Shown piece by piece: positions 19,484-64,000 of a stretch of 64,000 nucleotides of DNA. The stretch is taken from positions 38,286 to 102,285 of the forward strand of contig PWHN01000044.1 of assembly GCA_003554945.1 (NCBI GenBank), written 5' to 3'. The translations under genes and the position numbers were made by a program. The first letter of the stretch is position 1; each line of letters starts with the position of its first letter. A model generated the notes under the pieces. The model saw only the letters and a program-made list of their open reading frames with translations, did no database searches and was not told the origin of the DNA. Origin of the DNA: a bacterium. GTDB taxonomy: Bacteria > T1Sed10-126.

Positions 19484-20254
19484 TCACCACATCAAAGAGG
19501 TCATAACGTAGTTAGAAGCAAGGATTAAAACGCTGGCCAGGACGACCGCCTCAGTTGATGCCGCTCCCACTCCCTCGGCTCCCTTGCCTGTGTAATAACC
19601 CTTGTAGCAGCTTACCCAGGCAATAAGAGCGCCAAAGACAAGCGCTTTTATTGAACCAAAATAAATGTCTGAAAAGACAACAAAATCAATAATACCACCA
19701 AAATAACTCCCGTAACTGACGCCAAGCAGACCACCGCTAACAACAAAACCTGCAAAAATCCCAACAAGGTTAAAAATTGCAGTTAGCAGAAATACGGAAA
19801 TAACAAAAGCCAGTAAGATTGGTGCCATAAAATAGCGGAAAGGATTTAAATTCATTATTTTCAGGGCATCAAATTGTTCGGTTATACGCATTACGCCCAG
19901 TTCAGAGGTAATCGATGAGCCGGCGCGTCCGGCCACCATGAGAGCACAGACCACGGGCCCTAGCTCCCTCAACAGGGCCGCGGCCACCAGCGTCCCCACC
20001 TGGGCGGCGGCACCAAACTGGGCCAGCGTCTGTTGACCGTGAAGACCCATCACTGCGCCGGTAAAAGCAGAAATTAAAACAATCAACCAGAGGGAGCGTG
20101 CACCGATAAAATAAATTCGCTGCACAATCCGACCAATTTTCACCGGCGGAACAAACAGATAAACTGCCATCTTGCCGGCGAAACGACCGAAACGTCCCAG
20201 CCGTTCGACAGAATAGCGAAGATTAGCTCCAATTTGTGCCAGATAGTCTAACAT
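19484..20254 (-). CDS. mlaE: MlaE, ABC transporter permease
   Basis: This 256-residue integral membrane protein of the MlaE family has about five to six helices and the conserved segments LRELGPVVCALMVAGRAGSSITSELGVMRITEQFDAL and GAEGVGAASTEAVVLASVLILASNYVMTSL. It forms the membrane channel of the MlaFED importer or exporter. It is the first gene of the five-gene mla operon, with AAGGAGG before its ATG. Confidence 0.95.
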   Translation of the reverse strand: MLDYLAQIGANLRYSVERLGRFGRFAGKMAVYLFVPPVKIGRIVQRIYFIGARSLWLIVLISAFTGAVMGLHGQQTLAQFGAAAQVGTLVAAALLRELGPVVCALMVAGRAGSSITSELGVMRITEQFDALKIMNLNPFRYFMAPILLAFVISVFLLTAIFNLVGIFAGFVVSGGLLGVSYGSYFGGIIDFVVFSDIYFGSIKALVFGALIAWVSCYKGYYTGKGAEGVGAASTEAVVLASVLILASNYVMTSLMW

Positions 20255-49500: not shown

Positions 49501-50814
<1,314 letters not shown>

Positions 50815-50868
50815 CCCGGTTAATTAACCGCGCGGCGCAGCGCTATTTTTAGTTATTTTTTAACAAAA

Positions 50869-51107
50869 TGGTTCTATTGAAATCCTTACTGAAACCGGTC
50901 TACTCAAAGGTGTTGGGACTCATTCTTGATTGGCCTCCGGCCAATCTCCGAGGTATATCTGGCAATAATCAGATCATCCAAGATCTATTGCCAGCTATAA
51001 ATCCGTCAAACACCTTTGAGTAGCCCAAGTAAAGCGTATGGATATTTTTAAAAAGTAGCACTAATCAATTGCTCTCTAAGATAGCAAAAAGGATTTCAAT
51101 AGAGCCA
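50869..51107. repeat. Nested inverted-repeat element (MITE or structured RNA)
   Basis: The outer pair is TGGTTCTATTGAAATCCTT (50869-50887) with its complement at 51089-51107 (18 of 19). A second pair is CTACTCAAAGGTGTT (50900-50914) with its exact complement (51009-51023). Inside lie two further hairpins: GATTGGCC/GGCCAATC (50929-50947) and CTGGCAATA/TATTGCCAG with an inner AGATC/GATCT (about 50959-50996). The whole can fold as a branched structure. No coding frame is present. Confidence 0.85.
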
Positions 51108-51208
51108 CTAAAATAACTGTATCTTTTTTATGCTGCTACAGCGGTGGCGCTGTAATTAATCGTGCCAGTTTGTAGTAAAATCAGAAAATTTTTGAGGTGA
51201 ATTAGGTA
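51108..51208. promoter_or_regulatory. Leader of the aromatic-pathway operon
   Basis: Contains a small hairpin (CTACAGC-GGTG-GCGCTGTA, about 51136-51153), a possible -10 TAAAAT (51176-51181) with a poor -35, and the ribosome-binding site TTGAGGTG before ATG 51209. Confidence 0.4.
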
Positions 51209-52003
51209 ATGATTGGCAAGGATATTCGTATGGAAAGATTGATGAACCGTGAGTCGGGCAACACAGTAATCGTGCCCATGGATCACGGCGTAACAATTGG
51301 GCCTGTGCCCGGTCTGGAAAATATGTCCCGGGCTGTCGACAACGTCGTTGAAGGAGGAGCGACGGCTGTGTTGATGCACAAAGGGATGGTGGCTCACGGA
51401 CACCGCGGCGGCGGTGAAGACGTGGGACTTATCATTCACATGTCCGCCAGCACTTCTCTTTCTCTGCGACCCAACCATAAGATCCAGAGCTGTACCGTTG
51501 AGGAAGCCGTTCGCATGGGTGCTGACGCTGTTTCAATCCATATTAATCTGGGTGCAGAAAACGAATACCTCATGCTCCAGAAATTTGGTGAAATTGGTAA
51601 TAAATGTCAGCAGTGGGGAATGCCGCTGGTCGCCATGATGTATACCCGCGGTCCTCGAATTGATAACGAGTATGAAACTGGCGTCGTCGCTCACGCTGCC
51701 CGGGTGGGCGCCGAGCTAGGCGCTGATATCGTCAAATGCAACTACACCGGCGATCCCGAGAGCTTCTCGCGTGTAATCGAAGGCTGTCCGGTTCCCGTAG
51801 TAATTGCCGGCGGTGAGAAAATGGACGACGAGGCCAGCATATTAGAGATGGTTCAGGAAGCTCTGAACGCCGGGGCGAGGGGTGTCTCCATCGGAAGAAA
51901 CGTTTTTCAGGCAGCATCCCCCGACCGCATGGTTGAGGCTATCTCCTCAATTGTTCACCACGGTCAGACGACAGATAAAGCGGAGGAGATTTTAAATGAG
52001 TAA
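51209..52003 (+). CDS. 2-amino-3,7-dideoxy-D-threo-hept-6-ulosonate synthase
   Basis: This 264-residue class I aldolase of the DeoC/FbaB barrel has [60 protein letters not shown] with the Schiff-base Lys in IVKCNY, and GGEKMDDE. It matches the archaeal enzyme that starts the alternative route to 3-dehydroquinate from a hydroxypyruvaldehyde phosphate donor and aspartate semialdehyde. Its last bases overlap the start of the next gene. The pair is the diagnostic archaeal-type aro set. Confidence 0.9.
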
Positions 52004-57796: not shown

Positions 57797-58080
57797 TGCA
57801 ATCACTCCGTTGAAATGTAATAAGATTTTTCCACTACTTTAATTCATCGGCTGTTCATGGGTTGAGGTTTAGCTCGTTTATAAATCAAGCAGCTGTGGCC
57901 TGGTTTGTAACCGGCTATACCTCAACTCACTACTCATCACACTCTCTATTGAGTGCTCGGGAGACTGAGTGGCCCGTTTTCGCCAAGGATTTCTATAAAG
58001 CCAAATAAGATATAGACTATCTTGCTTGCAAAACGCAAAACTTCAATGACTGGTTTGTCGGCAGCCACAATGATTTTACT
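57797..58080. repeat. Repeat-containing spacer
   Basis: A foldable repeat lies at about 57861-57929: TTGAGGTTTAGC ... GCTATACCTCAA with GTGGCCTGGTTTGTAACCGG inside. A related copy is at 63906-63955. No gene is recognised. Confidence 0.6.
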
Positions 58081-63718: not shown

Positions 63719-64000
63719 GGATTTACCGACTTCTAATTCAAACAACTAATGCATTGTTCATATTTACTTACAATCAGACCACATATTTTCCCGGGCCCTG
63801 AGTTTTATTTTTTGGCTGAACTAACTAAAGTTTGCGATTTCCCCATTCTGCGAACCAAGCACTCAATCGGGCATACAAAGAGCTACCTGCAGGTGTTTTT
63901 CGGAATTATAGCCGGTTGCAGGCCACGATGGCCTGGTTTGCAATCGGCTATACCTTGGAGGTTGCCTGGACCATTTAGCAATGGAGGCTTTTTCCTTCCA
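63719..64000. other. Window end with repeat copy
   Basis: No gene is recognised. A foldable repeat at about 63906-63953 reads TATAGCCGGTTGCAGGCC ... GGCCTGGTTTGCAATCGGCTATA, related to the copy at 57861-57929. Confidence 0.6.

Follow-up and report, generated by a model that had tools for sequence, protein, structure and literature searches.

A MITE with a conserved three-way-junction core, proposed to encode a mobile minus-strand RNA that binds CsrA

CsrA decoy RNAs and MITEs are each already known. The decoys CsrB/CsrC and RsmX/Y/Z resemble the element described here in their GGA-tipped hairpins, in having several CsrA sites per RNA and in residing in CsrA-encoding genomes; they are, however, single-copy and immobile, have their own promoter and terminator and lack an invariant three-way junction, and no CsrB or RsmX/Y/Z family in Rfam matched the core of the element at E values up to 10. 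Known MITEs share with it a short length, the absence of an ORF, terminal inverted repeats (TIRs), target duplications, high copy number and intergenic location, but not a single conserved inner RNA structure shared by MITEs of different phyla whose ends are unrelated. REP/BIME elements with RAYT are likewise high-copy extragenic palindromes, often just after stop codons; they are hairpins of 20–40 nt, whereas the core is a three-way junction of about 130 nt that does not require a Y1 transposase. IStrons (transposon plus group I intron) and retrozymes (retrotransposon plus hammerhead ribozyme) also place a structured RNA module on a mobile element, whereas the core is a different and much smaller RNA that has no known catalysis and is found in several unrelated MITE families. 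Unlike the integron attC site (R-box core sites, IntI), it has its conserved bases in the inner junction and not at the hairpin base.

The locus lies in the window, by which we mean the whole 64,000-nt stretch of DNA analysed. Here eno ends at 50814 and a dhnA-type gene, the first of an archaeal-type shikimate pair, starts at 51209, with no gene or ORF between them, in agreement with an earlier note that placed a gene-free structure of 239 bases between eno and the aromatic operon. The 19-base outer arms reported there were recovered (50869–50887 and 51089–51107, 19 nt, 95% complementary), as were the two inner hairpins (50928–50946, with 8 bp around TCC, and 50954–50999); the second pair of arms is present (50897–50914 and 51009–51026, 94% complementary) but measures 18 nt rather than the 15 bases given. 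The element truly begins with GG at 50870 and ends with CC at 51106, and an imperfect 8-bp duplication borders it. RNA folding energies against 200 dinucleotide shuffles gave z = −10.3 for the plus strand and z = −7.2 for the minus strand, the latter being antisense to both eno and dhnA. The features are as follows.

50862–50869, no strand: left target-site duplication AACAAAAT, 7/8 identical to the right copy
50870–50887, plus: left TIR GGTTCTATTGAAATCCTT, family consensus GGCTCTRTTGAAATCC, from arm complementarity and genome-wide TIR matches
50897–50914, plus: 5' arm of helix P1; classes B–G have other, complementary sequences instead
50920–50927, plus: invariant junction TCATTCT(T/C), on the minus strand AAUGA and part of GAG/AAG; TCATTCTC in 91/95 copies
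50928–50946, minus: hairpin P2, loop GGA (GGCC-GGA-GGCC), from the alignment of copies
50947–50953, plus: invariant TCCGAGG, on the minus strand CCUCGGA (GGA bulge, CUC pairs with GAG); 94/95 copies
50954–50999, minus: hairpin P3, tip UUGGAU, from the alignment of copies
51000–51005, plus: junction AATCCG, on the minus strand CGGAUU; the same or close variants in most unselected copies
51009–51026, plus: 3' arm of helix P1, from arm complementarity
51089–51106, minus: right TIR, from arm complementarity
51107–51114, no strand: right target-site duplication ACTAAAAT, by comparison with the left copy
63882–63983, minus: second core in the same window, partial, class D, breaking off near the contig end; pattern and model matches

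Weak partial MITE matches at 57966–58003 and 19828–19851 of the window are probably solo remnants or chance.

The earlier note had set a MITE against a structured RNA, with many unlinked copies to decide for the former. Each reading is supported, and only the either/or framing fails, as the element is both: the proposed copy-number check yielded about 60 copies of the structured core in the 2.2-Mb genome (covariance model R1), yet an RNA is not refuted. Several observations show mobility. Within the genome, 50 matches to the 239-bp sequence were found, about 18 of them long and many at contig ends, and the TIR occurs at 51 places with no more than 2 mismatches, compared to 1 for the reversed control. 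Full copies begin with GGCTCTRTTGAAATCC, end with its complement and are flanked by 8-bp target duplications; exact duplications of 8–9 bp were found for ttacaaaa (L019), agtagtttc (L002) and gaaaaagc (half copies L007/L008), and 7/8 positions match in the window copy, L005 and L010. Furthermore, a genome of the same family has eno and dhnA adjacent with a 54-nt spacer and no element, compared to 394 nt in the window genome, although this empty-site comparison rests on that one genome. With TIRs, no transposase ORF, target-site duplications, dispersed copies and an empty orthologous site, the feature is a MITE, presumably moved in trans by a transposase that would recognise GGCTCTRTTGAAATCC and leave 8-bp duplications. 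No transposase ORF adjoined nine other TIR places when an autonomous insertion sequence with these ends was sought, and contigs break at repeats; the autonomous partner is thus missing or unassembled. The 239-bp sequence was also absent from relatives (58 genomes searched).

The inner part of the element is far more widely conserved than this one sequence. A pattern built on it matched 39 places in the window genome and none for the reversed control; these places fall into at least seven classes (A–G) with wholly different P1, P2 and P3 stems, nearly all of them complementary, on several MITE backbones. The core is a three-way junction of about 130 nt, in which the stems change completely yet stay paired while about 20 junction bases are fixed. 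Among 102 model matches aligned to the covariance model, 88% of pair cells were paired, covariation reached 0.74 (0.155 after shuffling) and 43/44 pairs had double changes. The signal was lost when the pairing partner was shifted by one column, and the result was reproduced on 65 diverse sequences. Alignments fitted to a structure favour such figures; the stems are nonetheless legible by eye. Of 95 copies taken without pattern selection, 91 had TCATTCTC and 94 had TCCGAGG, with AATCCG or a close variant as the third strand. The minus-strand sequence of the junction is CGGAUU - P3 - C - CUC[GGA]P2 GAG - AAUGA, with purine-rich mismatches, and its CUC-GAG pairing has the variants CTT/AAG and CTT/GAG among the copies.

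Two variants of the arrangement were observed in the window genome. Class A copies L012, L015, L020, L034 and L011 have a hairpin of about 74 bp (CCGAGCACTCAAT...ATTGAGTGCTCGG) in place of P2, with the junction intact; at L087, L088 and L080 a single MITE contains a class B core together with one of class D or G in the opposite orientation.

An Rfam scan gave no match at the element at gathering or relaxed thresholds (E up to 10), including to the skipping-rope and other computationally found motifs. A riboswitch was rejected, as the copies have no downstream gene in common, and so was an intrinsic terminator on the minus strand, as copies in G390 have no T-run beyond P1. At L176, L197 and L188, which lie in Patescibacteria and one Omnitrophota genome, the P1 arms terminate in A/T runs directly behind a stop codon, and the core there looks to sit atop an intrinsic terminator.

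We then asked which strand bears the constraint. A transition in a stem of duplex DNA appears as G.U when one strand is read and as A.C when the complementary strand is read. Distinct stem changes within ten families, read on the plus strand, gave 74 A.C vs 31 G.U (p = 3e-5); for P1 in 72 copies from three Nitrospirae genomes, the count was 95 A.C vs 11 G.U cells, with nearly every column in agreement. A smaller mixed sample, whose alignment was fitted to the plus strand, had a weaker bias in the same direction that was not significant (45 vs 31, p = 0.14). The A.C excess on the plus strand corresponds to G.U wobbles on the minus strand, and wobble is therefore tolerated mainly on the minus strand of the window. 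Since DDE transposases move MITEs without passing through single-stranded DNA, we read the selected minus strand as RNA, a reading made from sequence. The bias also occurs in families with near-random gene orientation and is therefore not explained by transcription-linked mutation. The structured-RNA reading, in which transcription itself is only inferred, is thus supported by strong covariation together with a tolerance of G.U that is specific to one strand.

The core was absent from the only other genome examined in the same phylum, and present in four unrelated genomes among 386. With a stricter pattern, GTDB representatives contained at least 102 matching stretches; among the matches listed, Nitrospirota were the most frequent, and the core-bearing lineages were Nitrospirota, Nitrospinota, Desulfobacterota-type MAGs, Latescibacterota, Spirochaetes, Omnitrophota, Campylobacterota and at least three Patescibacteria. 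About 12 listed pattern matches (e.g. Rhizobium, Chitinophaga and Croceicoccus) were unconfirmed by the covariance model and look like chance. Eight genomes contained 43, 38, 27, 31, 92, 14, 32 and 1 copies. In several genomes the core is central in elements of about 200 bp with unrelated ends: CCCRGAATTGTCATT (duplications of about 5 bp), CTGAAAAATAGAGAT (6 bp), CCTAARCTGAGCGATT (5 bp), TGTCCGGTAAA and GTGGTTATTAAGCAAAAGTG, the duplications being scored by eye. In the Nitrospirae genome with 92 copies, mostly nothing recognisable lies outside P1. The trpE-trpG spacer of Nitrospirae contains a core in two sister genomes, 17 bp in one relative, decayed halves in two more and different inserts in other genomes. 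These unrelated host ends and the variable trpE-trpG occupancy indicate that the core travels, and does so with more than one transposase. We found no earlier description of this motif, or of an RNA fold common to unrelated MITEs across phyla, in the open-licence PMC literature, the only literature covered; it is new to us to that extent.

In a related genome, the trpE-trpG spacer (L344) contains a different palindromic repeat, GTCATTGCGAG...CTCGCAATGAC. No transposase ORF recurs beside cores, only common background families. A HUH/RAYT transposase was rejected as partner, the Y1 family PF01797 being absent from G124 and G284, two of five core-bearing genomes of 98–100% completeness.

The loops of the core vary with the presence of CsrA. 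CsrA (PF02599) was found in 10/19 core-bearing genomes, including the window genome (G000:C104:42878-43036, E = 3.4e-25). GGA stood in minus-strand hairpin tips in 94/100 copies from the ten CsrA-bearing genomes, compared to 14/80 copies from the nine without detected CsrA, and in both loops in 72/100 and 2/80, respectively. All ten CsrA-bearing genomes have GGA loops in most copies and six of the other nine are GGA-poor (genome-level Fisher p = 0.003); the exceptions, with GGA but no detected CsrA, are two Patescibacteria with a single copy each and G176, an assembly of 81% completeness. In CsrA-bearing genomes no loop triplet is more common than GGA (166/200 loops), whereas its complement TCC was found in 3/200. 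The match holds within Nitrospirota, where G386 and G389 have CsrA and GGA (in G389 in P2 only) and G390, G394 and G395 have neither. The comparison covers 19 genomes only, copies within a genome are not independent, and there is no phylogenetic correction beyond this within-Nitrospirota contrast. The loop contexts (GACAU-GGA-UGUC, AUACA-GGA-UGUA and GACA-GGA-UGUC) resemble the CsrA SELEX consensus RUACARGGAUGU, with GGA in a hairpin loop (PMC7652899). A point against CsrA is the length of the P2 stems, which at 7–8 bp are longer than CsrA SELEX favours.

We therefore favour, with a probability of roughly 55%, a transposon-dispersed three-way-junction RNA of the minus strand that, in hosts with CsrA, binds this protein. 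The centre of the element would encode this compact RNA on the minus strand of the window, and in CsrA-bearing hosts, including that of the window, its P2 and P3 tips would present GGA in a CsrA-binding form, near ACANGGANGU. The CsrA dimer has two RNA sites. Minus-strand transcripts are predicted to fold and to be bound at their GGA tips by CsrA dimers, and the dozens of dispersed copies may jointly act as a CsrA decoy, or place nearby genes under CsrA control. The analysis itself shows mobility, a conserved structure, wobble selection on the minus strand and the correspondence of GGA loops to CsrA; transcription, CsrA binding and titration or any other effect are inferred. No promoter or transcript is known. 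If the reading is true, transposons spread the binding sites of a global post-transcriptional regulator genome-wide, in many phyla and in a fold outside Rfam; experiments would have an easy entry point in a single short RNA and a known protein, with clear predictions for hosts with and without CsrA.

CsrA cannot be the whole explanation. The invariant junction persists in genomes without CsrA and so has a further function, which could be that of a new ribozyme or a protein-binding fold. A bolder account, which we hold only tentatively and consider on balance unlikely, is a new class of mobile functional RNA, possibly catalytic, that moved between unrelated MITEs across phyla with an unknown activity at its junction and gained two CsrA-binding loops in CsrA-bearing hosts, becoming a genome-wide decoy.

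For the fixed junction, a new ribozyme is the first alternative, and the orientation of copies relative to genes bears on it. In three Nitrospirae genomes, the distance from the preceding stop codon to a copy is about 10 nt and that from a copy to the following start about 28 nt. Between tandem genes the mRNA strand there is plus in 42 vs 10 cases (p = 9e-6), and in tight operon spacers in 31 vs 4 (p = 3.5e-6), ORFs being called by a simple rule. The bias is weaker over the first set of loci (49 vs 24), and orientation in MITE-rich genomes is near random. No CsrA was found in those Nitrospirae genomes, and CsrA thus leaves their bias unexplained; helix stability, near equal on both strands, does not explain it alone either. 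An antisense excess is expected if sense insertions damage mRNAs, and the pattern is as expected if the minus-strand RNA harms an mRNA containing it, which fits a ribozyme or another cis effect. The minus-strand RNA might accordingly be primarily cis-acting and mRNA-disrupting, most likely as an undescribed self-cleaving ribozyme with the junction as its active site and CsrA loops acquired later in some hosts. Invariant junction strands between freely changing stems, also in hosts without CsrA, and mismatches of the G.A type on the minus strand favour this; the lack of an Rfam ribozyme match, the random orientation in MITE-rich genomes and the absence of cleavage data weigh against it, and we regard it as improbable though still worth keeping. 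Against the favoured CsrA reading, it counts that minus-strand expression is doubtful in the low-copy Nitrospirae, where this strand mostly runs antisense to the host operon.

The same tandem sites, where plus is the mRNA strand at 42/52, could instead suggest that the plus-strand RNA functions in operon mRNAs as a REP-like 3'-UTR element. This is doubtful, as wobbles are selected on the minus strand and MITE-rich genomes show no orientation preference. We hold equally little confidence in an action at the DNA level, in which a recombinase would recognise the element as a single strand folded in the manner of an attC site or an IS200/REP end. Stems of almost pure Watson-Crick pairs, G.T being the milder mismatch in DNA too, and copies close behind stop codons would suit it; the host MITEs, however, have 5-, 6- or 8-bp target duplications of the DDE type, with no single-strand stage, the Y1 family and a recurrent neighbouring gene are lacking as noted above, and the CsrA-linked GGA loops are not predicted. 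That the structure merely reflects MITE arms without function, whose palindromes hairpin-templated repair holds at perfect complementarity, can be set aside as very improbable. Palindromes are frequent in MITE arms and many copies per genome are, by inference, young, but the junction bases are fixed across phyla despite entirely different stems, the wobble bias is strand-specific and the host TIRs are unrelated.

Two further observations concern the core. In Spirochaetes genome G392, cores L319, L320 and L321 are clustered 190–360 bp apart with fragments of other cores between them, which suggests nested insertion. The sole match on a viral contig, by pattern only, is L248 on an IMG/VR contig (218–296, minus strand).
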